From Streptomyces sp. NBC_00102 (GTDB lineage: Bacteria > Actinomycetota > Actinomycetes > Streptomycetales > Streptomycetaceae): a DNA stretch of 64,000 bases. Below the pieces are notes generated by a model. It saw only the letters and a list, made by a program, of their open reading frames with translations. It was not told the origin of the DNA and searched no databases. A program made the position numbers and the translations under genes. Positions 17,171 to 35,395 of this stretch are shown here, piece by piece (position 1 is the stretch's first letter; every line of letters starts with the position of its first letter). Where the stretch lies: the NCBI RefSeq assembly GCF_026343115.1, contig NZ_JAPEMC010000003.1, positions 310,001 through 374,000 on the forward strand. Reading direction: 5' to 3'.

Positions 17171-20100
17171 TTACCATCGGTGAGATCGATACTCGCCGTA
17201 CAGACCGTAGGCCGTGGTGGCACCGCCGTACCAACGGTCGATCCCGTCAGCGCGTCGCGTGTAACGGTGATGGTAGCGGCGGTTTGCTTTCGCCGCTCTG
17301 CTGCGCATCCGCTTGTTGTACCTTCCGCGACCCCTGGCTCCCTTGGCGTATCGGGCCATCTTGCGGCCCTTCCAGAACTTTCCTGCGTATCGGAATCCCT
17401 TACCCGCGCCGAACGTGGCACTCCCGGCTATATCCATCCAGCCGGACCGATCGTGATGCCGGACCTTGTAGATTCCGCGCCCAAGAGAGATCCCGGCGGA
17501 AATCGCAGAACAGGCGGCGCAGCCGAACATTCCGGCTATCGCGAGTCCGGTTCCTGCGCGGTCAAGCCATTTACCCCAGCCGAACCGCCCATCGAGGTCG
17601 AGGCAGTTGATCGGATCGCCGGTGCAGTATTCGTAGGCGTTGGCATTCCCGCCGGGGATGGGGTCGACGGAGAGGAAGCGTCCCGTGGTGGGGTCGTAGA
17701 GGCGGACTCCCATGAGGGTGGCGCCGGTGACTGTTTCACTGGAGCGCTGCTTGCTGCCGAGCCAGCCGTAGCGGGCGGCGGTGCTGTCGTTCTCGGGGTT
17801 GCCGTACTCGTCGTATGAGAGAGCGGTGGCGGACTTGGTGATGTCCAGCGGGAGTTGGACGGTGGTGTCGCCGTGCAGGTCCGTCAGCTGGAGGACGGTG
17901 TCACCGGTGGCGCTGGTGACTGCGTCGAGGTCGCCGTCGATGCCCTGGACGTTGCGGGTGACCGCTGAGGCGGTTTCCTGGGTCCAGTCGGGGCTGTCGC
18001 TGTCGGCTCCGTAGTGGTTGGCCTTGGAGCCGGTCTGGCTCCAAGTGCTGTCTGCGGCTTGGGTTTCGGTGGTCCAGGCGGCGAGGCGGCCGGCCGCGTC
18101 CAGGGTCCAGGTCTGGCGGTTGGTGCCTGAGGTCTGGGTGCGGACGAGGTCGTTGGCGTAGTAGCCGATGGTGGCGCCCGTTGCCTGGGTAGTGGTGCGG
18201 CCCAGGGCGTCGTAAACGGTGCCGCTGGTGGTGAGGCGGTCGGCGCTGTCGTAGGTGTACGCCGTGGTCGCGGCCCCGGTGGTGGTGCAGTCGGTGCCGC
18301 CTGCGCTGGTCGCGGTGGCCAGGGCGGTGCGGTTGGTGTTCTTGTCGAAGGTGTAGTCGCGGCGCGTGCAGGACCCGTCGGGCGCGGTGTCGTCGGCCCG
18401 GGTGAGGCGGCCTGCCGCGTCATAGCTGTAGCTGCGGGCGCGGGTCTGGCCGTTGGATCCGGTCTCGTCGACCGTCTGATCCTGGGCGCTGTGGTCGGCG
18501 GTGTCGGAGGAGACGACGACGTTGTCGCTGTCCCGGGTGTAAACCCGGGAGGTTTCCGTACCGGTCTCGTCCTGGGTGACGTTCAGCGTGTAACCGCCGG
18601 GCAGCGCCTCGGTGGCCAGTTCACCGTCACTGTCGTAGGCGGCGGTGAAGGTTCCCGCTACCGAGTCGGTGCGGGAGGTTTCCAGGCCGCGCGGGTCCTT
18701 GGCGGTGTCGTAGGTGTAGGTGGTGGTGGAGGGTGCGGAGTCGGTCACCTTCGCGGGGCGCCCGAGGGCGTCGTAGGCGGTCGTGGCGGTGTTGCCCGCT
18801 CCGTCCTTGTAGCTGATCTCCCTGCCGAGAGCGTCGTACGTATGGGTGATGGTGCCCGCGCTGGTCGTCACGGTGGCCACGTCGCCGCTGTCGGCGGTGT
18901 ACGTGGTGGAGCTGTCCGGCACAGCGGTGCCGGTGCCGCCGCTGATGGCGACCTTGGTCGTGCGGCCCGCGCTGTCGTAGGTGGTGTCCGTGGTGCGGGT
19001 GACGGAGTTCGCCGTCTCGGTGACCTTGGACGTGTTGCCCCAGCGGTCGTATTCCACCGTCTTGGTGGGCAGCTGGGTGGGGTTGGAGCCGCCGCCGGTG
19101 ATCGCTCCGGCAGGGCCGGTGGAGCAGACCTGGTCGGCCCATTCCGGGCGGCCGTTGCAGGCGCCCGTGCCGGTGGCCGCGTAGTACGTGGTGACGGTGG
19201 CGCCCGCGTCGCTGCCGCTGGACTTGGGCTGGAGAGTCTTGATGACCCGGCCCTGAGAGTCGTACGACGTGGTCTTGGTGATGGCTAGGCCGCTCGGGTC
19301 GGTGACCTCGGTGGTCGGCAGGCCCTTGACCCAGTCGTAGGCGGTCGTGGTGGTGCGCACGTCGGCGTCGGCGGGATAGCCCGACACCGTCGCACCGGAC
19401 TTGGTGGTGGTGACCTGGTTGGCGACGGTGGCGGTGCCGTCGGTGGGACGGCCCTCGTCGTAGCTGTTGGCGGTGTGGGAGCGGGCCGGAATGGTCGTTC
19501 CCGCGGGAATGTCGCTGCCGCCTGCCCCGGCCTTGAGCACGGAGGCCAAAGTGACCTGGTGCAGCGGCCCGTACTCGTCGGTTTCACGCAGGCCGTCGGC
19601 GGAGTACACCGAGGTGGTGGACAGTTGCTGGGCGCGGTCGGCGGTGGACAGGCCGTCGATGTCCAGCGCGGTCAGCTCGGCGAGCTGCTCGCCGCTGCCC
19701 GACAGGGCCAACTCGCGGTTCGAGGGGTTAAGTTCACGGATCGTGTTGCCGTGGGTGTCGTACTCCGTGGTGGTGAGGTGCTTGCCGGGGGTGGCGGTAT
19801 TGACCTCGCGTCCCGATGCGTCCGCGTACGAGACGGTGGCCCGGGTGTAGTCCGAGGCCGCCAGGTCGGAGCCGGTGTGCGAGGTGGGAACCGAGTCGGC
19901 CGGGAAGACGGCGGTCGCGTCGGTGGGGACATCGCTCTGGCCCCAGGCGGCCACGTCCGAGGTGCCCATGGCGTTGGGCGCCTTGGCCCCGGTGAGCGGG
20001 ACGTCGTAGACCACGCTGGTGATGGCCGTGGTGCCATCCGGGGTGCTGGCGCTGCCCTGGGTCAGGTTCGGGCGGGAGGCTGCGAGCAGCATGCCTGTCC

Positions 20101-23100
20101 CTGCGGTGGCTGCGTTTCCGGCAGTGCCGTAGGTGAGGGTCCAGGGGAGTTCGCCCGGCGGGGTCAGGGTGGTCACGCGGCCGGCGCTGTCGTAGCCGTA
20201 AGCGGTCTTCAGCGCGGGGCTGATGCGCGGGTCCCAGGTCTGGCGCAGCTGCCCGGTGGTGTCGTAGGCGTACTGCGCGATGACGGTGGAGGTCGATGCG
20301 GAGGCGCCGGGAGTGGTGGCCCATTCCTTGATCTGGGCGACGCGGCCGGTGAAGTCGCCGGGTGCGGTGCTGGTGGCGGTGGTGGAGGTCGCGTAGACGT
20401 ACTCCAGCATCCGGCAGCCCTTAGCCGCCGGGGTGCTCTCGCAGGTGGAGGCGGTGACCGCGGTGGTCGGGGCGATGAGGTACTTGGGGCGGGCCAGGGT
20501 GCTGGTGCCCGAGGTGACCGCTTCGGAGACCACCTTGGTGGTGGAGTTGTCGGTCGGCAGGTAGGAGGTGGACACCTGCCAGGTCGTCGCCGCCGAGGCG
20601 ACCTTCGCGAAGGTGGTGGTGGTGCCCTCGGTGTCCTTCAGGGTGAAGGAGCCGGTGAGCGACCCGGTCAGGGTCAGGTCCTCTGCGCCGGGCTCGCTCT
20701 TCCAGCCGCCGGTGGTGGTGGCGGTGAAGCCGGTCTCGTTGCCGTCCACGTCGACCAGCGCCACCGAGGTGGCCGAGGTCTTGCGGACGTAGGCCCAGTC
20801 GGAGTCGGTGATTTCGGCGGTGGTGCCCGAGGTCCACTGCGGGCCGAAGATCGCCGCCTGGCCCTCGGCGTCGGAGCCTGCGGTCGGGCGGCGGGAGGAG
20901 GCGGTGCGCGTCACGCTGAGTCCGAACCCGGAGGCGTCCGTGTCGGACAGGGTGTAGTCACCGGTCAGGTCGTTGACCGAGCCGGGACCGACGTCGTCGG
21001 ACGGCGCGGTGCCCGCGTTGCGGTCCACCGTGATGGTGTTCGCCTGGGAGTAACCGGTCGCGGTGCCGTTCGTGAACGCGGCACGGATGTCGATCGCCCC
21101 GTCCTCGGTCAGCGACTTCGTGATGTTCCAGGTCAGGCCTGCGGGAACACCGTTGGCCACTGCCGCCGGCCAGGCCGCCACAGCGCTGCCGTCGGAGGTC
21201 TTGGTCACGTCCGCGAGCGGGACGGTGTGCCAGGTGTCGGTCTCACCGCGCCGGTACTGGTAGGTGACCCCGGTGTAGGAGGTCTTGCCCGTGGCGGTCA
21301 GCGATACGCGCCGGGCGCTGGTGTCACCGTCGCCCGGGGACAGCAGGGCGGCCCCGTCGGCTCCCACGCCGAAGGAGTACTTCGTGGTGGTGGCGGAGAT
21401 GTTGCCGCCGGAGTCGATGGTCTTGGCGTACAGGGTGTGCCAGCCGTCGCCCGGGGTGATGGACACGGTCAGCGGGTCGCCGCCGCTTCCGTCCACCGTG
21501 TCGTCGATGCGCTTGGGGGCAGCCGGGTCGTCCAGGCCCCAGGAGTAGCCCTGCCCGTCGGTGGAGGCGGTGTCCAGGGTGCAGGTCACCGTGCCGTCGG
21601 CTTTGGTGGTCCAGGTGTCCTGGCTGTAGGGGGTGCAGGCGATGGCGGGTGCGGTGGGCAGCCCGGTGTTCATCACGAAGGCGGTGTAGCCCGACCAGGT
21701 GCCGTAGTCGGTGCCGTCGAAGGCGCGTACCCGGTAGCGAAGGTGCACGCCTGCGGGGAAGGCGTTGGCGGCCGGGACGGCAAGGGTGGAGGTGGCGCCG
21801 GAGGCCACCGTCTTGCCGTACGCCGTGTAGGCGTAGGTGGTGTCCGCGACGGCGGGGTCGGCGGTGATCTCGTACTGGCCCTGGGCGTTGTCGCCGTCGG
21901 CGTCGGTGACCTTCGCCGACAAGGACGGGGTCAGCGAGGTGACGTAACGCTTGCCGTTGTAGGCGTTGACCGCCGACGGGGAGATCGCCTGCGAGCTGGT
22001 CGTGGCATGAGAGTTGTACGTGATCGTGAACGTCGGGTTCGACGCGAACCGCACCAGGTCGGTGGAGTTGCTCTCGGTGCTGTTGAAGAGCCCCAGGGTC
22101 CAGTTGCCGTTGGAGATGTTCGCCAGGTACTGCATCCCGGCGGTCACATCGAACGACACCGCTTTGTTGGGCGAGGAGCTCGTGGTGGTGAACGTCGTTG
22201 ACGCGTTCGGGCTCGGGTAGTTCGGGTTCGCCGCGCTGGTGGACTTGGCGGGCTGCTTGCTCCAGGTGGTCGTCGAGCTGATCGAACCGGTCGAGAAGGC
22301 GTTGATCGTTGTGGAGTTCGACCCGGAGGCGGCCGCGTAGGTGACCGTGGTGTTGAGCTTGCCCGACAGGATGGTGGTGCCGTTGATGCGGGCGGGCAGG
22401 CTCAGGTTGTAGTAGGTCCGCTCGATCCCGTAGGGGGAGGAGAAGCCCTGGTAGCCCACGGCCAGGCCGGAGCCGGGTGCGGCGTCGTAGTTCGACGTGG
22501 ACGGGTAGGCCTCCTGCACCTGGTCGTAGTGCAGCGTTGAGCCGGTTTCGGAGTGGGGCACGTAGGCGGGGTCCACGTACACCGGGTAGACCGTGCTCTT
22601 GGCCCTCAGCAGGTTCTGGTCCACGAGCAGGTGAAGTTTGTGGTCCTTCAGGCTGCTTTTCACGCGGGCCCGGTGGGCGCGCGAGCCCGGGGCCTGGGCG
22701 CTGGAGCGTGTGCCGGGTGGGGGCTTGAGGCGCGCCAGGGCCACGGTGGCCCTGCCGGCCGCGTTGTCGCCACCCGAGACCGTGCTGGTGCTCTCGGGGT
22801 CTGTCACGGTTGCAGGGTCGGCGGCGTTGGTCGCGGAGTCCCACATGACGGGCGCGGGCGAGGTGACGATGGCATCACCCTTGCTGTCCTCGACGGTCAG
22901 ATTCCCACCCGCGTCCGTAGTCGCGGTGATGCCGTTGCTCGTGGACACGGTCTGGACGAGGTCGGTCAGCGCTGGATCGGCCGCGGCGGTGGCGTTCTTC
23001 ACCACCAGGGTCTCCTCGGCCCCGCCGGCGGCGGTGGCGGTGACCTGGAGGTCGACTCCCGAAGCAAGCACGTCGGCGTAGGTGGCCGTGGCTCCCTTGA

Positions 23101-23659
23101 CGGTCGGCTTGGGCAGAGACGTGGACCAGACCAGCTTGGTCTGCTTGCCGTCCACGGTCATGTCGACCAGCGGCCCCTCGCCGCCCCCGGACAGCACCAG
23201 CGGCGACTCGCTCGCCGCAGGGGTGAGATCACCGTTCCCTGTCGTCACCAGAGTGGTGTCAACGTCCGTCCACTCGCCGTGCTTCTTGACCCAGCGCGGT
23301 TGCGCGGAGGTCTCGTACGACAGAGTCCCGTCGGGGTTGGCGAAGGTCTGCGCGGAGCTTGTCCTCGCGTTCATCACCTCGATCCTGCGCTTCTGCAACC
23401 GGGCAGTCAGGAGCGCGGACGACTCATTGGCCGCCTCCGCCGGACCGCTCAGCGACGGTGTCAAGGCGGGAGCGGCGGCAGCCACCGACGGTTCGCTTGC
23501 GAACGCGACTGTCTGGCCGGTCGCCTCGACGACGATGGCCGCTTCAACAGCGAGCAACAAGCCCAGTGAGCCCGCTATGCGCCTCAGCCGCTTGCGTCTC
23601 GCCTCAGCAGAAGCCAACCTCGAGGGAGGCTGAGCCCCACCCAGGAATCGAATCCCCAT
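17171..23659 (-). CDS. RHS repeat protein, polymorphic toxin with variable C-terminal tip
   Basis: Very large secreted protein of 2162 residues. ATG 23659 has AAGGAG five bases upstream (a GTG just before it is too close). A hydrophobic segment GSLGLLLAVEAAIVVEA near residue 31 serves for export. A DNRLRE-like beta domain follows (about 370-560, VYPVYVDPAYVPHSETGS), then Ig-like modules, then a long array of YD repeats (about 1100-1950, such as TYDSAGRTTKVA). The RHS core signature YDPTTGRFLSVDPIPGG ends the shell. The last 137 residues (FGWGKWLDRAG to SHRW) are the variable tip: a Gly/Ala-rich hydrophobic stretch, then a strongly basic Arg/Tyr-rich segment. I do not recognise the tip's activity. 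Confidence 0.93.
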   Translation of the reverse strand: MGIRFLGGAQPPSRLASAEARRKRLRRIAGSLGLLLAVEAAIVVEATGQTVAFASEPSVAAAAPALTPSLSGPAEAANESSALLTARLQKRRIEVMNARTSSAQTFANPDGTLSYETSAQPRWVKKHGEWTDVDTTLVTTGNGDLTPAASESPLVLSGGGEGPLVDMTVDGKQTKLVWSTSLPKPTVKGATATYADVLASGVDLQVTATAAGGAEETLVVKNATAAADPALTDLVQTVSTSNGITATTDAGGNLTVEDSKGDAIVTSPAPVMWDSATNAADPATVTDPESTSTVSGGDNAAGRATVALARLKPPPGTRSSAQAPGSRAHRARVKSSLKDHKLHLLVDQNLLRAKSTVYPVYVDPAYVPHSETGSTLHYDQVQEAYPSTSNYDAAPGSGLAVGYQGFSSPYGIERTYYNLSLPARINGTTILSGKLNTTVTYAAASGSNSTTINAFSTGSISSTTTWSKQPAKSTSAANPNYPSPNASTTFTTTSSSPNKAVSFDVTAGMQYLANISNGNWTLGLFNSTESNSTDLVRFASNPTFTITYNSHATTSSQAISPSAVNAYNGKRYVTSLTPSLSAKVTDADGDNAQGQYEITADPAVADTTYAYTAYGKTVASGATSTLAVPAANAFPAGVHLRYRVRAFDGTDYGTWSGYTAFVMNTGLPTAPAIACTPYSQDTWTTKADGTVTCTLDTASTDGQGYSWGLDDPAAPKRIDDTVDGSGGDPLTVSITPGDGWHTLYAKTIDSGGNISATTTKYSFGVGADGAALLSPGDGDTSARRVSLTATGKTSYTGVTYQYRRGETDTWHTVPLADVTKTSDGSAVAAWPAAVANGVPAGLTWNITKSLTEDGAIDIRAAFTNGTATGYSQANTITVDRNAGTAPSDDVGPGSVNDLTGDYTLSDTDASGFGLSVTRTASSRRPTAGSDAEGQAAIFGPQWTSGTTAEITDSDWAYVRKTSATSVALVDVDGNETGFTATTTGGWKSEPGAEDLTLTGSLTGSFTLKDTEGTTTTFAKVASAATTWQVSTSYLPTDNSTTKVVSEAVTSGTSTLARPKYLIAPTTAVTASTCESTPAAKGCRMLEYVYATSTTATSTAPGDFTGRVAQIKEWATTPGASASTSTVIAQYAYDTTGQLRQTWDPRISPALKTAYGYDSAGRVTTLTPPGELPWTLTYGTAGNAATAGTGMLLAASRPNLTQGSASTPDGTTAITSVVYDVPLTGAKAPNAMGTSDVAAWGQSDVPTDATAVFPADSVPTSHTGSDLAASDYTRATVSYADASGREVNTATPGKHLTTTEYDTHGNTIRELNPSNRELALSGSGEQLAELTALDIDGLSTADRAQQLSTTSVYSADGLRETDEYGPLHQVTLASVLKAGAGGSDIPAGTTIPARSHTANSYDEGRPTDGTATVANQVTTTKSGATVSGYPADADVRTTTTAYDWVKGLPTTEVTDPSGLAITKTTSYDSQGRVIKTLQPKSSGSDAGATVTTYYAATGTGACNGRPEWADQVCSTGPAGAITGGGSNPTQLPTKTVEYDRWGNTSKVTETANSVTRTTDTTYDSAGRTTKVAISGGTGTAVPDSSTTYTADSGDVATVTTSAGTITHTYDALGREISYKDGAGNTATTAYDALGRPAKVTDSAPSTTTYTYDTAKDPRGLETSRTDSVAGTFTAAYDSDGELATEALPGGYTLNVTQDETGTETSRVYTRDSDNVVVSSDTADHSAQDQTVDETGSNGQTRARSYSYDAAGRLTRADDTAPDGSCTRRDYTFDKNTNRTALATATSAGGTDCTTTGAATTAYTYDSADRLTTSGTVYDALGRTTTQATGATIGYYANDLVRTQTSGTNRQTWTLDAAGRLAAWTTETQAADSTWSQTGSKANHYGADSDSPDWTQETASAVTRNVQGIDGDLDAVTSATGDTVLQLTDLHGDTTVQLPLDITKSATALSYDEYGNPENDSTAARYGWLGSKQRSSETVTGATLMGVRLYDPTTGRFLSVDPIPGGNANAYEYCTGDPINCLDLDGRFGWGKWLDRAGTGLAIAGMFGCAACSAISAGISLGRGIYKVRHHDRSGWMDIAGSATFGAGKGFRYAGKFWKGRKMARYAKGARGRGRYNKRMRSRAAKANRRYHHRYTRRADGIDRWYGGATTAYGLYGEYRSHRW

Positions 23660-23949
23660 CACGTCTCCTTCACGCCCACTTCACATAAGTGCGCAGTAAG
23701 GCTGAAGGATCGCAGTCACGCAATCACAAGCGGATCACAGGGTTCCGATCGAGGGTCGCGGTCGTGCGCGTCAACGCTTTCGGCGCGATCAATGTAGCTA
23801 TTTGTCCACTACGTCTTACTGCTCAATCGGTGGTCGGATCGTCAGTTGGTCAATGAAGGTTCAAGGAAAAGATCTCCCAATCCTTTACATTCGTGAAGTC
23901 TTCTGCCCCTCCGCGTCGCGAAACAGTGGAGTGCCCCCTTATGCGGGAG

Positions 23950-24465: not shown

Positions 24466-25364
24466 GAGCTCGTAACACGATCATGGTCGGGTCTTCTTGA
24501 GGCGTCGGTAGCAGATGAGGCTGCAGGCGAGGGATACGAAGGCGTCGTGGAGTTCGGTGCGGCGTTCCCAGCGGACGGCGAGTCGTTTGAAGTGGTGGAG
24601 CAGGGCGAAGGTCTGCTCGACGACGTATCGCAGCTTGCCGATGCCCTTGATGTTCGGTGCTCCCTTGCGGGAGATGACGGGCAGGATTCGCCGGCGACGG
24701 AGCTCGTCGCGGTTCGGGTTGGAGTCGTAGCCTTTGTCGCCGAGCAGGGCCTCTGGTCGTCGGCGGGGTCGTCCGGGTCGGCCTGCGACGGGTGGGATGC
24801 CGTCGACCAGGGCGAGGGTCTGGGTGACGTCGTTGACGTTGGCCGCGGTCGTGATGACCTTGAGCGGGGTGCCGCGTCCGTCGCAGATCAGGTGGTGTTT
24901 GCTGCCCGTTTTCCGCCGGTCGACCGGCGACGGACCGGTGTCGGTGCCCCCTTTTTCGCGCGGATGTGGGAACCGTCCACACACGCACGTGACCAGTCGA
25001 GTTCGCCGGCCGCGTTCAGCTCGGCGAGCAGGACCCGATGCAACTGGTCGAAGACTCCTGCCTTCTGCCACCGGTCCAGTCGGCGCCAGCAGGTCTGTCC
25101 CGAGCCGAACCCGAGCTCCAGGGGCAGGAGTTGCCAGGCTATGTCGTTGTAGAGGACGAACAGGATGCCCTGGAGGCAGAGCCGATCCGACACCGGCCTG
25201 GGCCCCGGCGACCGCTCCGGCCACGGCGGCAGCAACGGCTCGACCAGAGCCCACAACTCATCGTCGACGATCCACGGTCGGGTACCCACACCCTCACGAA
25301 CGGCCGAATCATCACACCGGTAACGGCCTACCAGGACGATTCAGCAAGATCGTGTTACGAGCTC
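24466..25364 (-). mobile_element. IS5-type insertion sequence (IS427-like group), complete (899 bp)
   Basis: Perfect 17-bp terminal inverted repeats GAGCTCGTAACACGATC are at 24466-24482 and 25348-25364. The transposase is split over two frames, as in IS427-group elements. It is the full-length relative of the truncated copy at 14638-15175 and lies in the same orientation, about 9.3 kb away. No clear target duplication is seen next to the repeats. Confidence 0.9.
24481..25289 (-). CDS. IS5-type transposase (OrfA/OrfB, frameshift at AAAAAGG)
   Basis: OrfA runs from GTG 25289 (MGTRPWIVDDELWALVEP) to 24888 and OrfB continues in another frame to 24481. The switch is expected at the A-run of GCGCGAAAAAGGG (KKG) near 24955, the usual frameshift site of this group. 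Catalytic context is present: ACVDGSHIRA (first Asp), EALLGDKGYDSNPNRDELRR (second Asp), and VEQTFALLHHFKRLAVRW with the final Glu. With the shift the product is about 265 residues, normal for the group. Confidence 0.88.
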
Positions 25365-26050: not shown

Positions 26051-26104
26051 CCGCACAGTTCATGGGCGGCCTCCCCGTGTTCTTGGGCCCTGTCAAGCAG
26101 GGAT

Positions 26105-26455
26105 TTATTCGGCTTGTTGGGCGGTACAGGGCTGGGTGAAGAGGTGCTGGGTTCCGGTGATGTCGAGAAGGCGCCGGAGGAAGGAGGGCTGGTTGTCCAG
26201 GTGGAGGCGTGCGGAGTGCGCGGTGGTGTGGCGGTGGATCATCAGGAAGGAGGAGACGCCGATCGAGTCGCAGAAGGTGAGTTCCGCGCAGTCGATGTGC
26301 AGGTCCTGCAGGCCGGGCTGCTCGGTGAGGCATTGCTCGGCCCGCTCTGCCACCGCGTCGCCCGTGCTGAAGTCCAGGTCGCCGGTGAGGCGGAGGTACG
26401 CGCTGTCCCGCCCGGTCTCAACGGTCAGAGTGAGGGAGGAGGGCAGAGGCATCAT
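26105..26455 (-). CDS. STAS-domain anti-sigma factor antagonist
   Basis: Single STAS domain of 116 residues, the RsbV/SpoIIAA type of partner-switching antagonist. The phosphorylation loop is ELTFCDSIGVSSFL, with Ser after Asp as expected for the residue phosphorylated by an RsbW-type kinase. ATG 26455 overlaps the stop of the cobalamin-binding gene (ATGA), so the two are translationally coupled; earlier in-frame starts lie within that gene. When dephosphorylated by a SpoIIE-type phosphatase (two are encoded just upstream) it would sequester the anti-sigma kinase and release a sigma factor. Confidence 0.92.
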   Translation of the reverse strand: MMPLPSSLTLTVETGRDSAYLRLTGDLDFSTGDAVAERAEQCLTEQPGLQDLHIDCAELTFCDSIGVSSFLMIHRHTTAHSARLHLDNQPSFLRRLLDITGTQHLFTQPCTAQQAE

Positions 26456-27537
26456 GCGGTCACTCCGGGGCGGGACCCTGCGGTGGGGGTGGCACGGTCC
26501 AGAGCGAAGCGCGCCTGGTCGAGCAGCCTTGTGGTCCGGGGGAAGTCGTTGAGTTCGGTGGCCAGGATGTCCAGGGCGGGATGCAGGGAGCGGGTGGGGA
26601 CGTGGCGTGCGGTAAGAATGCGCGCGGTCCACGTGATGAAGGTGGTGAACAGGTCGTCGTCGTCGAGGTAGAGGGCGACGGTGAGGAATTCGACGATGTG
26701 GGCGAGGTCTTCGGCGGTGCGCTCACGCTGGTGGGCGGTGTAAGCGGACATTGCGGGGAAGTGCTCTTCAAGCCGGGTGAGAACCGTCTTGACCAGCTGC
26801 GGCTGGGAGCGACCGACGAGCGTGTACTCCTGGTCGGTGAGGTGGGGCAGGTCGTCGATCTGCTGGTGCCCTCGATCGAGTGTGGGGGCGGGAACGCCGT
26901 CGGCGAGCAGGCGTGCTGCAGCGCGTGCGTCGGGGGCCCAGGCGTCGGCGCCGAGGAGGCGGGCGTATCGGCCGTCGTGTCCGAAGGCTGCGCCGCCGAC
27001 GAGGACGGGAACGCCGATGGCCTGGCACGCGGTGATCGCCGCGTGGGCGGCGGGCAGCCGGGTGGGGAGGGAGGAGGAAAGGGCCACCGCGTCGGTGCCA
27101 CTGGTGTGGAGGTGGGCGATCAGGTGCGGGGTGGGGACCTGAGCACCGAGGAAGTCGACTTGCCAGCCGCGCAGGGTGAGGACTTCGGCCAGCAGGCGGG
27201 CGGGCAGGGAGTGCCATTCCTGTTCCACGCAGGCCACGGTGATGTGCCCGAGGCTGGGTGGGGTGCGGTGGGCGGGGTGGTGAGCGAGGGCGGCGATGAC
27301 GCGTTCGGTGATGGCGCTGGCCGCGTGCTCCTGTGCGACGCTGAGCCGGTTGGCGGCCCATTCGGCGCCCACCTTCGCCTGTACCGGGGCGATGAGATCC
27401 AGCAGGGCGGTCTCCGCGTCCAGCCCGTCGTCGAGAGCGGTGAAGACGATGTCGGCGGCGCGGTACTCGTCGCGGGTCGTGACGGCCGCCCACAACTGGT
27501 CCCGCAGGCCCTGGGCGACAGCGGTCGTGGGGGTCAT
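26452..27537 (-). CDS. Cobalamin-binding sensor protein with CarH-type W-x9-EH motif and helical C-terminal domain
   Basis: Cytoplasmic sensor of 361 residues; ATG 27537 overlaps the phosphatase stop (ATGA). Residues 10-90 form a B12-binding cap helix bundle. It includes W60-AANRLSVAQ-E70-H71, the W-x9-EH signature that contacts adenosylcobalamin in the photoreceptor CarH. Residues 95-215 are the Rossmann-like B12 domain: VACVEQEWHSLPARLL supplies a candidate lower-ligand His (E-x-H, though the usual following Gly is replaced), then VDFLGAQVPTPHLI and VLVGGAAFG. Residues 225-361 are all-helical (VEFLTVALYLDDDDLF) and recall globin-like sensor domains such as RsbR-N or those of photocobilins. 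There is no DNA-binding domain, so output is probably by protein contact with the flanking phosphatase or STAS protein. Confidence 0.88.
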   Translation of the reverse strand: MTPTTAVAQGLRDQLWAAVTTRDEYRAADIVFTALDDGLDAETALLDLIAPVQAKVGAEWAANRLSVAQEHAASAITERVIAALAHHPAHRTPPSLGHITVACVEQEWHSLPARLLAEVLTLRGWQVDFLGAQVPTPHLIAHLHTSGTDAVALSSSLPTRLPAAHAAITACQAIGVPVLVGGAAFGHDGRYARLLGADAWAPDARAAARLLADGVPAPTLDRGHQQIDDLPHLTDQEYTLVGRSQPQLVKTVLTRLEEHFPAMSAYTAHQRERTAEDLAHIVEFLTVALYLDDDDLFTTFITWTARILTARHVPTRSLHPALDILATELNDFPRTTRLLDQARFALDRATPTAGSRPGVTA

Positions 27538-29201
27538 GCGGTGTACCTGCCTCGGGTGTGGCCGTTCACGGCGCTGAGATGCTGCGTGCGGGGTGCGCTG
27601 ATGGCGATGAGCGCCATGTCGTCGTGGCGGCCGTTGCGCAGCCATTGGGAAGCGAGCATCTGGATCTGCTCGATGACGGCTTCGGCCGGCATGTCGGCAC
27701 ACTCGGACAGGGCCCGTCGCAGGCGTTCGTCTCCGAACAGTTCGTCACCCAGGGGACCGCCACGGGCTTCGGTGAATCCGTCGGTGTAGAGCAGGCAGGT
27801 GTCGCCCGGCTCCAGCACGGCCTCCACGGTGAGGGCCTCGATCGTGGGGAGGACCCCGATCAGTGAACCGCGGGTGGGGACCTCTTCGATGTTTCCGTCG
27901 GCGCGGACCACGAGGGGGTGGGGGTGGCCGGCCGAGGTGAGGCGCAGTCGCACCTGGTTCTCCGCGCGGTGCACCGAGGCCAGTACGAGTGTGGCGAAGC
28001 GGGTGTGATGGGAGTTCAGCAGAGCGCCGTTGAGGAGTCGCAGCATTCGTCCGTGGTCGTCGGCCATGGGCAGCAGCGCTTGCAGGGTGTTGCGGATCTT
28101 GCCGGTCAGGACGGCGGCTTCCAGTCCCTTGCCGCACACGTCCCCGAGGACCACCAGCGACGCGTCCGCCGCGGTGCTGCCGGGGTGGACGTCGTAGAAG
28201 TCGCCCCCGACCTGTTCGGCGGCGCCTGCGGGGCGGTAGCCGCCGGCGATCTCCACCCCGTCCAGGCGTTGCAGGGTCGGCGGCAGCAGGTCACGCATCA
28301 AGGTCTGGGTGATGGCGCTCTGTTCGCTGTAGAGGCGTGCGGCGGACAGCGCGGCACCGGCCCGGGCCGCGAACAGGCGGGCGAAGACCTCTTCGTCCTG
28401 GTTGAACTGCGCACGACCGCTGCGGCGGAGCAGGATCAGGGCTCCCGCCGGCACCCCGTGTCCGGGCAGGGGGGTCACGACGACCGAATCGATCTTCCCG
28501 GTGAAGCCGTCCGGGAGGGCCCATCCGGGCAGGGCGGCGGGATCGATCCAGCGCGACGGCACGGGCGGGAACCCCTGGAGCGCTTCCGCGAGTCCGGGGA
28601 GATCGGACGGGTCGGCGACGAGCAGAGCGCGGTCGGCTTCCCGCCCGGTGAGGGCCCGGGAGACGGGTAGTTTGCCGCCCTTGGCGGGGGCGACGACGAT
28701 GGCGACGTCCGCGAGGTACTCGGCGGCGAGCTGCGCGGTCGCGGACATGCACTTGTCGGTGTTCAACGAGGCCAGCAGGACATTGGACGCCTCCGAAAGG
28801 AAACGAGTGCGTTCACGCTCCGCGACAAGTGCGTCCTCCGCGAGCCGACGGTCAGTGTCGTCGACCAGCCACCACACCACGCTTCCCTCCGGCGTGGGCG
28901 TGGCATGCGCCTCGAAGCTCTGGGCTCCGATCCGCCCCGACAGGACAGTCGGCGCAGCACAATCCTGATCGGCCCGTCGGGCGGAGCCGGTGTGTGTCGC
29001 TGTCATGCGCCGGTGGGCGTCGGTCAGCCAGCTGGGAGCCACGTCCTGCATACTCGCCCCGGGCGTCGCACCGTCCAGGAGGAGAGCGGCCGCGCTGTTC
29101 AGCTCGAGAACGGTCCCAGCCGCGTCCGCCACGATGGCGGGGTAGGGGGCGAGGCCCCACCAACTCGTGTGGGTAGCGGTATTTTCCCTGGTTGAGGCCA
29201 T
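27534..29201 (-). CDS. PAS-GAF-SpoIIE (PP2C) serine phosphatase
   Basis: RsbU/SpoIIE-type phosphatase of about 555 residues. The start is uncertain: ATG 29201 (MASTRENTATHTSWW) sits at the edge of the PAS domain; in-frame starts at 29276 and 29354 exist. Order: PAS (about 15-110, YPAIVADAAGTVLELN), GAF (about 150-310), PP2C (about 325-540). All metal ligands are present: VGGDFYDV, LGDVCGKG, YTDGFTEAR and GRHDDMALI. It should dephosphorylate a STAS antagonist, most likely the one at 26105. Its stop overlaps the start of the cobalamin sensor by 4 bases, and that sensor overlaps the STAS gene, making a tightly coupled three-gene unit. Confidence 0.92.
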   Translation of the reverse strand: MASTRENTATHTSWWGLAPYPAIVADAAGTVLELNSAAALLLDGATPGASMQDVAPSWLTDAHRRMTATHTGSARRADQDCAAPTVLSGRIGAQSFEAHATPTPEGSVVWWLVDDTDRRLAEDALVAERERTRFLSEASNVLLASLNTDKCMSATAQLAAEYLADVAIVVAPAKGGKLPVSRALTGREADRALLVADPSDLPGLAEALQGFPPVPSRWIDPAALPGWALPDGFTGKIDSVVVTPLPGHGVPAGALILLRRSGRAQFNQDEEVFARLFAARAGAALSAARLYSEQSAITQTLMRDLLPPTLQRLDGVEIAGGYRPAGAAEQVGGDFYDVHPGSTAADASLVVLGDVCGKGLEAAVLTGKIRNTLQALLPMADDHGRMLRLLNGALLNSHHTRFATLVLASVHRAENQVRLRLTSAGHPHPLVVRADGNIEEVPTRGSLIGVLPTIEALTVEAVLEPGDTCLLYTDGFTEARGGPLGDELFGDERLRRALSECADMPAEAVIEQIQMLASQWLRNGRHDDMALIAISAPRTQHLSAVNGHTRGRYTA

Positions 29202-29411
29202 GTAAGAGGGCCCGCCCTGGGCGAACCGCACCACCTTCCCCTGCTCGATGAAAAGTATTTGCCGTGCGGCAAGCATCCTCCAGGGGTGTCCTCGATAGCA
29301 ACCTGCCCCCGCGTGCCGCGTTCCGGTCGCGGTGTGCTTGCACGCGAAGAACACGCCGCAGGACCGGAACCTTCACACCGTGGCCACATCAGGGCTCCCG
29401 GAGGCAGGTGC

Positions 29412-30596
29412 TCAGCTATCGGCGGCGGGTCGGCCGTGCCAGTCCAGGCACATCACCAACGAGTCGTCGGCAGCCGGGCCGGAGCCGCGGTGTCCGAGCA
29501 GTTCCTGCAGCATCGCGCGGGGCACCTGGGAGGCGGGGAGCAGCCGTGTGCTGGTGATCGACCTGGCCAGGGCGCGCAGGCTGTACTTTTCCCCGGCGGG
29601 TGACAGCGCGTCGTAGACGCCGTCGCTGATGAAGAACAGGCGGTCACCGGGCTCGACGGCAAGGTGCTGGGGGACGTAGGCCGTGTCCTCGAACATCCCC
29701 AGCGGATCCTGCGCCTCCAGCTCGACCGTCTCGACCGCACCCGCGCGAAGCCGCCACACCCGCGGCGAGCCCGCGTCGATGATCTCCACCTCACCGGTGG
29801 GCAGGTGAAACCGGAGCAGCAGCGTCGCCAGGTACTTGGCGCCTCCGTACTGCCCGTGGACCGCCTGGTCCGCGAGATACGCCTGATCGCTCAGGTCCAG
29901 TCCGGCGCGGCGGGCGTTGCGCAAGGCGTTGACGGCGAGGTTGGTCAGCAGCGCGGCGTCGATCCCCTCGCCCATGCCGTTGCTCACGGTCAGATACAGA
30001 TCGTCTGCGGAGGCCGACCAGTCGAAACTGTCACCGAAGATGGCGTACGCGGGCTCCAACTGCGCTCCAAGGCTGTACTCGGGGCGGGCACATGAGCGGC
30101 CGGGCAGCAGCTGCCACTGCATCTCGGCGGCCAGCGTCAGGCGCTCGGCCCGACGGGCCTGCAGGAACACGTCGGTGTCGCGCTCCGCCACGACCACCTC
30201 ATGCGCCAGCGCATCCGCGTACAACTGGAGTTCCCTAGCCACGTCCGCCCCCACCGTGTCCCCAACGCCTGGCAGGGTGACGCTCAGCACGCCGAGGCGG
30301 TCCCCCCGGACGCTGACCGGCAGGTGCACCATTACCGCGGAAGCCGAGTCGTCAGGCACGCAGTACGGCTCCTGGGCCCCGAACGCGCGGCCCGGCGCGC
30401 TCTCGTGCACCGACAGCGGCCGCAGCGTGTGCGGCAGCACACCGACCGGTTGCAGCCGGGTCATGGCGTAGTCGGCCATCAACAGTTCCACCGCGCGGGC
30501 GCCGAAACGATCCTCGATCAGGGAACGGAGCACGTCGAAGATCTCGTGGGGCGCGGCCTCGCGCAGAGCACGCTCAACCGCACTGGGTCTGTCCAC
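29412..30596 (-). CDS. GAF-SpoIIE family protein with altered PP2C active site
   Basis: Protein of 394 residues. Residues 1-135 form a GAF-like sensor, then a short coil (RRAERLTLAAEMQWQLLPG) leads to a PP2C/SpoIIE domain (about 165-390). The first metal motif is degenerate but keeps Asp (FGDSFDW). The second motif, normally DGMGHG, reads SNGMGEG with Asn for the metal-binding Asp. The third (FISDGVYDA) and last (AADDSLVM) Asps are kept. It may be a weak phosphatase or a non-catalytic partner. It lies 210 bp upstream of the PAS-GAF-SpoIIE gene on the same strand and is divergent from a MarR gene. Confidence 0.88.
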   Translation of the reverse strand: MDRPSAVERALREAAPHEIFDVLRSLIEDRFGARAVELLMADYAMTRLQPVGVLPHTLRPLSVHESAPGRAFGAQEPYCVPDDSASAVMVHLPVSVRGDRLGVLSVTLPGVGDTVGADVARELQLYADALAHEVVVAERDTDVFLQARRAERLTLAAEMQWQLLPGRSCARPEYSLGAQLEPAYAIFGDSFDWSASADDLYLTVSNGMGEGIDAALLTNLAVNALRNARRAGLDLSDQAYLADQAVHGQYGGAKYLATLLLRFHLPTGEVEIIDAGSPRVWRLRAGAVETVELEAQDPLGMFEDTAYVPQHLAVEPGDRLFFISDGVYDALSPAGEKYSLRALARSITSTRLLPASQVPRAMLQELLGHRGSGPAADDSLVMCLDWHGRPAADS

Positions 30597-30693
30597 CGGT
30601 ACCGGTCTTCCTTTCCTTCACATATCTTCATCTATGCGACTGCTCACATCGACCAGTCAGAACGGGCACGAAGCGCCCACTCGGGAGTGTCAC

Positions 30694-31182
30694 ATGCGCG
30701 AGGCCCACGCCTCCCACGACCAGCACCCTTCCCGAACCGCGCCCGGAATCGGGAACATGCTGGAGCTGCTGGAAGCAGCGTGGGAGCGCCACCGCGACAC
30801 GCTCAGCACCGCGCCGCTCTCCGCCGCCCAAACCCGTGTGATGTACCTCATTGAACGCGAACCAGGCATCAACCTGACCGCGCTCGGCCGTCGCCTATCC
30901 TCTGCCGCACCGTCCGTCACCCGCCTGTGCGACCGCCTTCAAGCCGCCGGATTCCTCCGCCGCACCCCCCACACCGAGGATCGGCGCGCCACACAACTGG
31001 AACTCACGGAAGCGGGCACCGCCTACCTCCACGGCATCCGGCACCGCCGGGAACAGGTCCTGCGTCAGGCCATGGATCGTATGAGCCCCGAAGCCCAGCA
31101 AGCTCTCGCCATCGGTCTCGCCGCCCTGTGCGACGCCGCCGGCGAACCCACGAGGCAACCCGAACGCCGCGAAACTGCCTGA
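30694..31182 (+). CDS. MarR family transcriptional regulator
   Basis: Winged-helix regulator of about 162 residues. ATG 30694 (MREAHASHDQ) has GGGAG seven bases upstream; an in-frame ATG at 30634 would add 20 residues and sit closer to the divergent gene. The wHTH runs LSAAQTRVMYLIEREPGINLT through RLSSAAPSVTRLCDRLQAAGF to the wing RRTPHTEDRRATQLELTEAG. It is divergent from the GAF-SpoIIE gene with 97 bp between the start codons, so it may control the signalling operon and itself. A terminator hairpin follows. Confidence 0.9.
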   Translation: MREAHASHDQHPSRTAPGIGNMLELLEAAWERHRDTLSTAPLSAAQTRVMYLIEREPGINLTALGRRLSSAAPSVTRLCDRLQAAGFLRRTPHTEDRRATQLELTEAGTAYLHGIRHRREQVLRQAMDRMSPEAQQALAIGLAALCDAAGEPTRQPERRETA

Positions 31183-31186
31183 GCGA

Positions 31187-31230
31187 CGCACTCCTCACCA
31201 CTGGGTGAGCCGTCGGAAAAGAGGAGTGCG
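31187..31230. terminator. Terminator hairpin after the MarR gene
   Basis: CGCACTCCTC (31187-31196) pairs perfectly with GAGGAGTGCG (31221-31230) around a 24-base loop. It starts four bases after the MarR stop codon. Confidence 0.65.
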
Positions 31231-31611: not shown

Positions 31612-32040
31612 TCAGGCCACGACGTTCATGCCTTCGCGGAGCTTGCGCAGGATGCGGTTCAGCAGCCGGGAGACGTGCATCTGGGAGATGCCGAGTTCCG
31701 CGCCGATCTGGGCCTGGGTCATTTCGGCGCCGAAGCGCATCTGAATGATGAGGCGCTCGCGTTCGTCGAGCTGCTCCAGGTGTGGGGCCAGGTCGTGGAG
31801 GTTCTCGAAGGTCTCCATCGCCGTGTCCCAGTCGCCGAGCACCTCGGCGTAGCCGCGCTGCTGGCGTCCGTCGTCGCTGTCGGAGGAGGGTACGTCGAGC
31901 GAGCCGGCCGAGTACCCGTTGGAGGCCACGAGTCCTTCGATGACCTCTTCCTCGCTCAGGTCGAGGTGGGCGGCGAGCTCTTTGACCGTCGGGTCCCGGT
32001 CGAGCCGGACGGAGAGCGTCTCCTTGGCCTTGGTTGGGTA
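31612..32040 (-). pseudogene. SigB/SigF-family sigma factor, 5'-truncated (regions 3 and 4 only)
   Basis: The frame encodes the end of a stress or sporulation-type sigma factor. Region 3 is DRDPTVKELAAHLDLSEEEV. Region 4 is ERERLIIQMRFGAEMTQAQ, then IGAELGISQMHVSRLLNRIL, a complete helix-turn-helix for the -35 element. Upstream of about 32040 the reading frame runs into unrelated sequence next to the MerR gene with no start codon; region 2, needed for -10 recognition and core binding, is missing. A GTG at 31929 could start a region-4-only product of 105 residues. It is most likely a remnant whose 5' end was replaced when the MerR segment arrived. Confidence 0.82.
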
Positions 32041-32069: not shown

Positions 32070-32408
32070 TCAGCCGACGTTGGCCTGGCTGGCAGTGGGG
32101 TGGGTGCGCTGGTGCTCGGCGTTGATCCGTTGTGCTTCTTCGAGCTGGTCTTCGAGGATGATGATGCGGCAGGCGGCGTCGACGGGGGTGCCCTGGTCGA
32201 CGAGTTCGCGGGCGCGGGCGGCGATGCGCAGCTGGTAGCGGGAGTAGCGGCGGTGTCCGCCGGCGGAGCGCAGCGGGGTGATGAGGCGCGCGTCGCCGAG
32301 GGCGCGGAGGAAGCTCGGGGTGGTGCCGAGCATCTCGGCAGCTCTGCCCATGGTGTAGGCGGGGTAATCGTCGTCGTCGAGACGGTGGTACGAGTCGTCT
32401 GCGGTCAT
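32070..32408 (-). CDS. MerR-like helix-turn-helix regulator
   Basis: Small regulator of 112 residues from ATG 32408 (MTADDSYHRL). The winged helix is YTMGRAAEMLGTTPSFLRAL followed by the MerR wing RSAGGHRRYSRYQL at about residues 27-62. A short dimerisation helix follows (ACRIIILEDQLEEAQRINAE). There are no cysteines for metal or redox sensing. The compact form resembles small MerR-type or excisionase-like proteins of Streptomyces. A perfect 31-bp palindrome lies 26 bases upstream and may be its operator. The gene ends 29 bases before the truncated sigma frame. Confidence 0.85.
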   Translation of the reverse strand: MTADDSYHRLDDDDYPAYTMGRAAEMLGTTPSFLRALGDARLITPLRSAGGHRRYSRYQLRIAARARELVDQGTPVDAACRIIILEDQLEEAQRINAEHQRTHPTASQANVG

Positions 32409-32434
32409 TTGCACCTGTTTCTGGAACGCGTGGA

Positions 32435-32465
32435 GGGGCCCTGGTGCCAGTGGCACCAGGGCCCC
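32435..32465. promoter_or_regulatory. Perfect 31-bp palindrome upstream of the MerR-like gene
   Basis: GGGGCCCTGGTGCC (32435-32448) and its exact complement (32452-32465) flank a 3-base centre AGT. It lies 26 bp before the MerR start codon. It could be an operator, or a terminator hairpin for a transcript arriving from the right. The distance from the start codon and the tight 3-base loop leave both possible. Confidence 0.6.
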
Positions 32466-33309
32466 GAAGGAACTACACCATCCGCCGGCCCTGGTTCTGC
32501 GCGGGCCTTCTGTGTCCGCCGTCCCGACCTGAACGGTGTCGGGGGTGCGGGGATCGCGGTTGCTTGACCGGAGACCACCTCACTGTCGATGTCCTGCGGT
32601 ACCCGGACTCAGGTGTTCGGTCCGGGCGATCCTGATGGCGCTCGACTCCTCCGTTCTTCCCTCGGTGATCAACTGCTGCCAGTGGGGACTGGGAACTGCT
32701 GCTACTGCTTTCTCGTGTACTGCTGGTGATGCGAACTGCTCGGCGGCCTCGACCGGCGCCGCTCCTTCGGCAGCCAGCCCCGTCGCCCGTCCTGCGTCCG
32801 CTCTGGCTTGGAACCCCACTGCCGAACCACCCGGTGCGTGCGTCCGCAGCCGACGCCTTCACCGAGGTACTGCTTCACTCCACTTCGCTGCTGGGTACTG
32901 CCCTTGCGTGAACCGCAGTCCTGCTGGTGGCGGCCCCTGATCACTGCGGGCCACCCGGTCCGGTCGTCAGCCACGTCGCCGTCCTGCACCTGCTCTGGCT
33001 TCGCGACTCCACCACCGCACCGTCCTGCGCGCGGCAACTACATGTACCGCTCCCGGCAGTTCGTGTCTGCCGGGCCTTGCTGTCTCTCGGGGCTACGACA
33101 GAAACCATAACCACGCCACCACCCAATGTCTACTCCCGCCATGACAGATTTTGGCCCGTTCGATGATGAGGTATTAGGTCTCGAACAGTGAGGGATGTGG
33201 CCGGGCGCGGACCTGTCACCGCCGGTTGAAGAGCCATGGTCCGGGCATGAGCCAGGCACGGGGCAGAGAGAGCCGGGCCCCTGCCGACGCAGAAGCCAGG
33301 GGCGGCCAG
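32466..33309. other. Gene-free stretch of about 840 bp with skewed, pyrimidine-rich sequence
   Basis: Frames are open here in several directions, but none looks like protein and none has a good ribosome binding site. The plus strand from 32660 to 33080 is rich in CTGCTG, ACTGC and CCTGC words and is less G-rich than neighbouring genes, unlike ordinary coding sequence. From about 33105 to 33190 it turns AT-richer (CCATGACAGATTTTGG, GATGATGAGGTATTAGG), which could hold the promoter of the RsbW-like gene. A non-coding RNA is possible but not shown. Confidence 0.4.
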
Positions 33310-33699
33310 ATGGACACGATGAGCGTGAACCTCACCCCCGCCCTCTCCGCGTCCTCCATCGCCGGCGCACGCGACAGCGCCCGCACCTTCCTCGGCGCAC
33401 TCGTACCGGCATGCGCGACCGAGGCTGCCGGCACCGTGGTTCTGGTCGTCTCCGAACTCGTCACCAACGCCCTGCGCCACGGCGGCGGCGCCTGCACCCT
33501 GGACCTGACCGCACACCCGGACGGCATCGAGGTCGCCGTGCACGACCACAGCCCGCTTCTGCCACGCATGCGCACCCCCGACCTGCACGGCGGCACCGGA
33601 GGCTTCGGCTGGCCCATGGTCAACCGCCTCGCCCGCACCACCAAGGTCACCCCCCGCCAGCGCGGCGGCAAGACCGTCAGCGCCCTCCTGCCCAGGTAA
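33310..33699 (+). CDS. RsbW-like ATP-binding protein (anti-sigma factor kinase family)
   Basis: HATPase domain protein of 129 residues from ATG 33310 (MDTMSVNLTPALS); upstream in-frame starts at 33247 or 33226 are possible. The N box VLVVSELVTNALRHGG is near residue 50. The G1 box is VAVHDHSPLLPRM and the G2 region is GGTGGFGWPMVNRLA. The protein is the length of a stand-alone anti-sigma serine kinase of the RsbW/SpoIIAB type. With the SpoIIE phosphatases and STAS protein nearby it could complete a partner switch, although it lies about 2.6 kb beyond the MarR gene on the opposite strand from that operon. Confidence 0.88.
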   Translation: MDTMSVNLTPALSASSIAGARDSARTFLGALVPACATEAAGTVVLVVSELVTNALRHGGGACTLDLTAHPDGIEVAVHDHSPLLPRMRTPDLHGGTGGFGWPMVNRLARTTKVTPRQRGGKTVSALLPR

Positions 33700-34385: not shown

Positions 34386-34832
34386 TCAGGCGGCGGTCGG
34401 CTGGGGCCGGCGCAGTTCTGCCCGGCCGAAGAGGAGGGCGTAGCCGTCGGGGAGCCGGTGCAGGATCCGGGTGATGAGGTCGGGGCCGGCGAGGTGGGTG
34501 ATGACGGCGAGTACGGCGCCGGTGTCCCAGCGGGTGGTGGCCGGGGTGGCACCGGTGCGGGTGGCCAGGTCCTTGACGAAGCCCCAGCCGGTGAGGGGTT
34601 CGGTGTCGGGGATCTGGGCGGTCAGGGTGAGCGCGGCCTCGACGGGCAGACAACGGGCGAGGTCGACGCGTTCGTCTCCGGTGAGCTGCCGGCCGAGGGC
34701 GGCCAGGACGTTGTCGACGGATTCCGCGGCGCGTTCGCGGGTGGGGTAAGCGCCTTCGTAGCGCACGCGTTCCAGCATCTGGTCGAACGTCATGACCGTC
34801 TGGGGCCGGTTCGTTCGGGGCTGGTCGTACAT
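34386..34832 (-). CDS. DUF2267 domain-containing protein
   Basis: Cytoplasmic protein of 148 residues with DUF2267 features: FDQMLERVRYEGAYPTRERA at the start, VLAALGRQLTGDERVDLARCLP, then a second helical repeat ending LPDGYALLFGRAELRRPQ. ATG 34832 (MYDQPRTNRPQ) follows an AAAGG at some distance; ATG 34793 (MTFDQMLERV) is the alternative. Function of the family is unknown, but it recurs in stress-related actinobacterial clusters. It is the second of two tandem DUF2267 genes downstream of hsp20 on the same strand, so the three may be one heat-shock transcription unit. Confidence 0.87.
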   Translation of the reverse strand: MYDQPRTNRPQTVMTFDQMLERVRYEGAYPTRERAAESVDNVLAALGRQLTGDERVDLARCLPVEAALTLTAQIPDTEPLTGWGFVKDLATRTGATPATTRWDTGAVLAVITHLAGPDLITRILHRLPDGYALLFGRAELRRPQPTAA

Positions 34833-34891
34833 GGCTGCGGTTGCCTTTCTGCGAAGGAAGCCGCCGCGCGCGGGCGGCGGGCCGGTGGTGG

Positions 34892-35287
34892 TCAGGTGGG
34901 CTGGGGGTGTCCGAACAGGAGGTCATAGCCGGGCGGGAGCTGGAGAAGGACCTCGCGGGTGAGGACGTTGCCCGCGGCGGCGGCCGCGGTGGACAGGACC
35001 GCGCCTATGTCCCACAGGGCGGTCTTCTCCGTGGCACCCTCGATCCAGGCTGCGGTCGCGCGGACGAACCGCTCGGACGAGAGCGGCTCCGCCGCCTGCA
35101 GCGGGTTGAGGAGGATCAGGGCGTAGGTCTCGGGGAGCCGGGCGGCAAGCTCGGCGCGCACGGTGCCGACCAGGTGCGCACCCAGCAGGGCCAGGACGAC
35201 GCGTGCGACGCGATCGGCCTCTTCGGGGGTCTCGTACTCGCCTTGTTGCTGGACGTGGGCCAGAAAGGATTCCCTGCGCATCGACAT
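34892..35287 (-). CDS. DUF2267 domain-containing protein
   Basis: Protein of 131 residues, paralogue of the next gene: MRRESFLAHVQQQGEYETPEEA, VVLALLGAHLVGTVRAELAARLP and a matching C-terminus LPPGYDLLFGHPQPT. The start region reads GGAGGTGAC-GTG-ATG-TCG-ATG; ATG 35287 is chosen as best spaced from GGAGG, and ATG 35281 is also possible. It lies 59 bases upstream of the second DUF2267 gene and 108 bases downstream of hsp20. The shared C-terminal LP-GY-LLFG motif shows recent duplication or close co-evolution. Confidence 0.87.
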   Translation of the reverse strand: MSMRRESFLAHVQQQGEYETPEEADRVARVVLALLGAHLVGTVRAELAARLPETYALILLNPLQAAEPLSSERFVRATAAWIEGATEKTALWDIGAVLSTAAAAAGNVLTREVLLQLPPGYDLLFGHPQPT

Positions 35288-35395
35288 CACGTCACCTCCG
35301 GGAACGGAGTGAAGGGGTCAACGGGGGTGCGGAGGGCGGGGCACCGGGGGGAATGGGATCTTCCCGCCCTCCGCTGCCGGGTGCTGCTGGAGGAC

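Follow-up and report, generated by a model that had tools for sequence, protein, structure and literature searches.

A conserved SpoIIE-photocobilin-STAS gene unit of Streptomyces and related actinobacteria as a candidate light-gated partner switch

What is a cobalamin-binding protein doing between the genes of a SpoIIE phosphatase and a STAS protein? The question is raised by a 64,000-nucleotide stretch of Streptomyces sp. NBC_00102 (contig NZ_JAPEMC010000003.1, positions 310,001 to 374,000 of the forward strand; hereafter the window, in whose coordinates positions are given unless a genome and contig are named). On the minus strand, running from 30596 down to 26105, lie genes for a 394-amino-acid (aa) SpoIIE-like protein, a 555-aa SpoIIE phosphatase, a 361-aa B12-domain protein, and a 116-aa STAS protein, the last three being joined by ATGA overlaps at 27534-27537 (SpoIIE/B12-domain protein) and 26452-26455 (B12-domain protein/STAS). 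An initial annotation, made from the sequence without database searches, had described the same coordinates, strand, overlaps, and upstream second SpoIIE-like gene, and had proposed that light or cobalamin state controls the phosphatase-STAS pair and, through it, a sigma factor. Here, we find that the overlapping trio is a real and widely conserved gene unit whose middle product is, by sequence and predicted structure, a photocobilin. We consider it probable, though well short of certain, that the products of the block make up a light-gated partner switch in which the photocobilin acts on SpoIIE, which in turn acts on STAS. The features of the trio are as follows.

26105..26455, minus strand: STAS protein of the anti-sigma-factor-antagonist type, 116 aa (Pfam STAS_2, 54.7 bits; candidate phospho-serine S64 in C-D-S-I-G)
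26452..27537, minus strand: photocobilin, 361 aa, with predicted four-helix bundle, B12 Rossmann domain, and C-terminal bilin-type globin (8J2W/8J2X match, AlphaFold2, Foldseek)
27534..29201, minus strand: SpoIIE/PPM phosphatase, 555 aa (Pfam SpoIIE, 145.5 bits; motif aspartates, homologue start, model)
27537..27581, minus strand: C-terminal tail of the 555-aa SpoIIE, here HLSAVNGHTRGRYTA (tail pattern in 56/82 loci; predicted disordered)

Homologue starts favor ATG 29201 as the start of the phosphatase gene, giving the 555 aa, and 210 bases separate this codon from the end of the 394-aa SpoIIE-like gene, which is therefore not tightly coupled to the trio's phosphatase.

In the 361-aa protein, Pfam recognizes B12-binding (60.5 bits) and B12-binding_2 (53.5 bits) domains and, in line with the initial annotation, no DNA-binding domain. 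The best matches among PDB sequences are the dark (8J2W) and light (8J2X) structures of SasPcob, the standalone photocobilin of Saccharothrix syringae (E about 1e-85, residues 11-346), followed by AbPcob (1e-42), with CarH far behind (1e-7). The AlphaFold2 model (pLDDT 88.7) resembles 8J2W at a Foldseek TM-score of 0.86 and 46% identity, and comprises a helix bundle and a Rossmann B12-binding domain followed by a bilin-type five-helix globin, i.e., the photocobilin architecture. Structure prediction had been suggested as a check on the suspected likeness to photocobilins, and it bears that likeness out. In residue equivalents mapped by hand from the PDB-search alignment and the numbering given in passages of PMC10979010, the adenosylcobalamin (AdoCbl) contacts W60, E70-H71, and lower axial H109 correspond to W61, E71-H72, and H108 of SasPcob, and H138, D277, and W303 to H137, D270, and W296 of its biliverdin pocket; the W60, E70, H71, and H109 of the initial annotation are thus confirmed.

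We followed these residues through 82 loci, comprising two copies from this genome and 80 loci (of 94 relatives) named Streptomyces, Kitasatospora, Actinacidiphila, Mycobacterium/Mycolicibacterium, Nocardia, Actinoallomurus, Actinospica, Sphaerisporangium, and Nonomuraea. W60, E70, H71, E107, H109, and W303 were invariant (82/82), position 277 was Asp in 81 loci, and position 138 was His in 77. Position 277 matters because AbPcob, which has His there, binds biliverdin poorly (PMC10979010). Photoglobins are described as part of a bilin-binding globin lineage (PMC10151467). In one relative (L154, G094:C1:7950000-7967000), the photocobilin match stops at residue 321 and the alignment skips window positions 26438-26579, so the globin of this relative seems, from the alignment, to be missing its end, with the STAS gene retained. 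Some database records name homologues "methanogenic corrinoid protein MtbC1", and the pairing of B12-binding_2 with B12-binding would suit a corrinoid protein serving a methyltransferase; that role is nevertheless very improbable here, given a photocobilin match that is nearly full length, globin included, and 25 neighbor clusters among which no methyltransferase was recognized by eye (rather than by a Pfam scan).

Is the coupling to SpoIIE and STAS peculiar to this strain? Searching other genomes for the three-gene arrangement, as had been suggested, showed that it is widely conserved. SpoIIE lies directly upstream of the photocobilin in 82/82 actinobacterial loci, with a 4-base overlap in 76, while STAS, scanned for with a profile from trimmed domains, lies directly downstream in 67/82, 57 of which show a 4-base overlap. 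An apparent SpoIIE-photocobilin fusion at one locus (L041) was rejected, as the reading frame shifts close to the end of SpoIIE and the photocobilin lies in another frame. With SpoIIE domains at 29 places in the 8.6 Mb of this genome, adjacency in every one of the 82 loci is beyond chance. The same genome holds a second SpoIIE-photocobilin-STAS trio (L152, G000:C2:767039-770091), whose photocobilin shares 66% identity with the first; a HATPase-STAS pair and a further STAS gene flank this trio. Another set of 29 loci, taken within the genus (strains partly shared with the 82-locus set), had SpoIIE in 29 and STAS in 28. The photocobilin itself is patchier, matching at E<=1e-60 in 53 of 150 genomes of the genus and in 13 of 396 genomes of a phylum-wide sample, this genome included. 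As to what else lies nearby, a hemL-like gene (glutamate-1-semialdehyde aminotransferase, by eye) occurs about 4-5 kb from the trio at L012, L014, L015, L016, L020, L035, L040, and L047, in both Streptomyces-type and Mycolicibacterium loci, and ten mycobacterial trio loci (L027, L028, L029, L034, L036, L038, L039, L043, L045, and L060) stand beside division-like genes (ftsZ, murC, and wag31; by eye).

The association can also be read from either partner. The 150 genomes of the genus contain 58 close orthologues of the coupled SpoIIE, of which 53 adjoin a photocobilin. Among the five exceptions, the G010 copy is near a partial photocobilin match, and the other four (L136, L137, L138, and L139) were inspected: L137 carries clear remnants of a decayed photocobilin (at most 60 bits) between SpoIIE and STAS, L136 a faint 15-bit piece in the same place, and in L138 and L139 SpoIIE runs straight to STAS with no photocobilin between. 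Because STAS still follows SpoIIE in these last two loci, which have no photocobilin, SpoIIE-STAS looks like the core phosphatase-substrate pair and the photocobilin like its input. Conversely, SpoIIE was listed for 56 of the 61 photocobilin matches in the genus, and two more (G057 and G101) proved to have one on inspection; the remainder are G010 and two partial matches outside the set inspected, G016:C37 and G064. Might the photocobilin be co-transcribed with SpoIIE and STAS and yet act on another target, the operon only timing expression? In four genomes of other classes, the stretches retrieved around five photocobilins (L145-L149) contained no SpoIIE and, between them, a single 12-bit STAS-like match, and SasPcob can act on an unrelated cyclase (PMC10979010), both of which would fit such a role; on the other side, adjacency in 82/82 and 4-base overlap in 76/82 loci over several families, together with the 53 of 58 SpoIIE orthologues, exceed what shared timing usually gives, and we hold this alternative to be quite unlikely.

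The aspartates of the PPM metal-binding motifs of the coupled SpoIIE are kept in 82/82 loci. The initial annotation had called this protein PAS-GAF-SpoIIE, of which the SpoIIE assignment stands and the sensory part is weaker: GAF falls below the Pfam cut-off (17.0 vs 22.4 bits) and PAS has no Pfam match, while the AlphaFold2 model runs through a PAS-like domain, a long helix, a GAF-like domain, a second long helix, the phosphatase, and a disordered tail, with the PAS-like and GAF-like calls being a reading of secondary-structure order. Foldseek relates the model to phytochrome sensory modules at low TM-scores (0.22-0.25). The coupled STAS proteins, once aligned, keep Asp63 in 67/67 and Ser64 in 65/67, and the protein here has the Ser after Asp (D63-S64) in a STAS domain that marks the RsbV/SpoIIAA type.

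The tail of the phosphatase deserves separate attention. Its consensus is HLSAVDGHTRGRYTA, and residues 541-555 have pLDDT under 50. Synonymous codons vary at most positions of HLSAVDG over the 56 loci with the pattern, which points to selection on the tail peptide; AGG encodes the last Arg in 50 of the 56, at the position expected for the Shine-Dalgarno sequence of the next gene, and that codon region may serve as such a sequence for the photocobilin start. By raw counts, the tail occurs in 55 of 67 loci with STAS and in 1 of 15 without (Fisher p 5.5e-8, with L041 scored tail-less owing to its frame shift). On the tree, however, this association is not significant, as well-supported branches offer 3 independent pairs, with which the test cannot reach significance, and we treat it as a hint. 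The photocobilin-less L138 and L139 keep both tail and STAS, and L136 and L137, with decayed photocobilins, keep STAS without the tail pattern.

The PF01126 haem oxygenase of this genome is an N-terminal piece covering 2-56 of 204 positions (G000:C1:1476486-1476650, L091); haem-oxygenase-like PF14518 proteins are present. A haem-oxygenase match was found in 139 of 150 genomes of the genus, with a near-full-length PF01126 profile match in about 135 (counted by hand), so that co-occurrence, being near universal, is uninformative as a test of bilin use. In G082, another photocobilin carrier, the haem oxygenase is in two fragments. The truncation here weakens the red-light arm and lends something to the alternative that the photocobilin reports AdoCbl (or bilin or haem) status rather than light, with ligand occupancy alone altering its contact with the phosphatase; in a fused homologue, AdoCbl binding alone lowers activity relative to the apo protein (PMC10979010). 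Set against this, W60 and E70-H71, the counterparts of the residues by which CarH and SasPcob hold their photolabile adenosyl group, never vary in the 82 loci, and the bilin residues are nearly as constant, which makes a sensor of ligand status alone unlikely, if a little less so than a separate target.

How, then, might light reach the STAS protein? The proposal of a light-gated switch builds on homology for its light step. By analogy with SasPcob, which is a dimer in the dark and a monomer in the light (PMC10979010), the dark AdoCbl-loaded photocobilin would be a dimer, and light (green via B12, red via bilin if present) would remove the adenosyl group and yield a monomer. One of the two forms would bind SpoIIE, most likely at the PAS/GAF domains or the helical linkers, and would change the pairing of the phosphatase domains, as RsbT does to RsbU, which it activates through linker and phosphatase dimer (PMC12143880). 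SpoIIE would thereby set the phosphorylation of STAS Ser64, the conserved SpoIIE tail may help to hold the STAS substrate, and STAS, when unphosphorylated, would bind a kinase/anti-sigma factor of the RsbW type whose gene lies elsewhere. There is precedent for action in trans: photocobilins alter the activity of an unrelated cyclase, apparently via protein contact, with bilin-loaded SasPcob activating it in the light state and AdoCbl-only SasPcob activating it in the dark instead (PMC10979010). Because these two forms acted with opposite sign, the light response could even be inverted. No cognate sigma factor was identified. More tentatively, and as a possibility we would not favor on present data, the system may be a three-input phosphatase switch that combines a PAS/GAF ligand with the light states of AdoCbl and of a bilin, with the photocobilin serving as a removable light-gating subunit of the SpoIIE-STAS core and SpoIIE carrying its own substrate-docking tail; where the haem oxygenase is lost, as seems the case here, such a switch would run on B12 alone.

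How far does the conserved unit extend, and does it include the partners that such a switch would need? In a blastn comparison of window 15001-45000 with eight relatives, one stretch of about 26100-31187 was shared by 8/8 and covers the MarR, second SpoIIE, SpoIIE, photocobilin, and STAS genes (in two aligned pieces in L009 and L154). Six of the eight had no other match longer than 150 bases; the extra matches were part of the HATPase gene in L155 and 32110-33689 in L153. The features upstream of the trio are as follows.

29412..30596, minus strand: second SpoIIE-like protein, 394 aa (Pfam, 124.6 bits; Asn for Asp in second metal motif)
30634..31182, plus strand: MarR-family regulator, divergent from the second SpoIIE, at the edge of the conserved block (Pfam MarR, 55.1 bits)
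33226..33699, plus strand: HATPase_c_2 (RsbW/SpoIIAB-type) gene near the block, which may be a kinase partner (Pfam, 47.6 bits)

The second SpoIIE reads SNGMGEG in place of GDVxGKG, and of the 15 proteins of this type, 14 have the Asn, the present one among them, so its phosphatase activity is in doubt. HATPase genes near the trio often come with extra STAS genes, e.g., at L014, and the best match in this genome to the L014 HATPase (57%) adjoins the second trio. The HATPase in the window, matched in 2/8 relatives, shares 38% identity with that L014 protein and is thus unsupported as the cognate kinase. A sigma-70 region 4 fragment at 31612-31929, lacking the earlier regions, lies outside the block, and blastn found no match to the surrounding 31183-32110 in L153, the closest relative compared; we rejected it as a member of the block and so as the target. 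Adjoining this fragment is a short MerR-type protein (32070-32456), most of which is matched in L153. Elsewhere in the window are IS4/5-type transposase pieces (DUF4096) in overlapping frames near the STAS end of the block (24481-25289), a 2163-aa protein resembling, by eye, an RHS-repeat surface protein (17171-23662), and two tandem DUF2267 genes (34386-35290).

Several observations weigh against a light-gated switch and keep our confidence where it is. No downstream STAS was found in 15 of the 82 loci (7 Nocardia, 2 Actinoallomurus, 5 Streptomyces, and 1 Mycobacterium), although, in favor of the switch, 6 of those 7 Nocardia loci have a STAS gene 2.5-3 kb upstream, in 5 of the 6 with a HATPase. 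Five distant photocobilins of the genus (42-45%) likewise come with SpoIIE, and the stretches retrieved around them show no STAS. Neither a sigma gene nor a gene for an anti-sigma kinase is present in the conserved block, which, with only a region-4 fragment nearby, leaves the initial annotation's step to a sigma factor not borne out, and only 25 of 82 loci have a HATPase gene of at least 100 bits no more than 6 kb away, a lower bound because the stretches of this genome's two loci are short. Three of the four inspected photocobilin-less SpoIIE copies are extra copies in genomes with an intact unit, and for two of the four we infer that a photocobilin was lost rather than never present. The truncated PF01126 protein makes the bilin supply of this genome doubtful, and the switch function of this trio is a prediction from its genes.

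The trio can be placed among known systems. SasPcob is the nearest relative of its photocobilin, homologous over nearly the whole length with all AdoCbl and biliverdin residues kept; this genome differs in having the second trio and the truncated haem oxygenase, and it is gene order, overlaps, and cross-family conservation that are laid out here. AbDPcob, a photocobilin-diguanylate cyclase fusion (8J2Y), has the same two sensory domains, whereas it carries a fused cyclase and a His for the bilin-binding Asp, and the protein here has no fused output and keeps the Asp (D277). CarH, LitR, and AerR (5C8D, 3WHP, and 7TE2) share the B12 domain, with the W...EH motif in CarH; unlike them, the 361-aa protein lacks a MerR DNA-binding domain and has an extra C-terminal globin. 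On the output side, the Bacillus sigma-B phosphatases RsbU (with RsbT) and RsbP, acting with RsbV and RsbW, provide the counterpart, having a PPM phosphatase, a sensory N-terminus, a helical linker, and a STAS substrate (PMC12143880), whereas here the candidate input is a separate photocobilin, and the conserved block is without kinase and sigma genes.

The initial annotation knew of no described partner switch with such an input. The idea of a light/B12 partner switch is nevertheless not new, because Zhang et al. 2024 (PMC10979010) already predicted that SasPcob works with STAS, SpoIIE, and PP2C proteins. That paper calls the function of standalone photocobilins less clear and, in its methods, names a Streptomyces among the species analyzed; passages of PMC11796333 name SasPcob and not this gene set. 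In the open-access literature searched, we found no experimental test of the photocobilin-SpoIIE-STAS link. The photoglobin abstract of Schneider et al. 2022 reportedly drew associations with B12 domains and signaling from gene neighborhoods. New here are the scale of the conservation, the coupling by overlap, and the conserved disordered SpoIIE tail, together with the catalytically altered second SpoIIE and the MarR gene in the same block and the truncated haem oxygenase in the genome, and genomic support for the published proposal is now a good deal stronger.

Together, these data point to a specific partner pair, encoded by overlapping genes, for the photocobilins of a large actinobacterial group. 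If true, partner-switch signaling would have a photocobilin input and the unit would offer a compact optogenetic phosphatase, and in Streptomyces sp. NBC_00102 light may set a stress-type switch.

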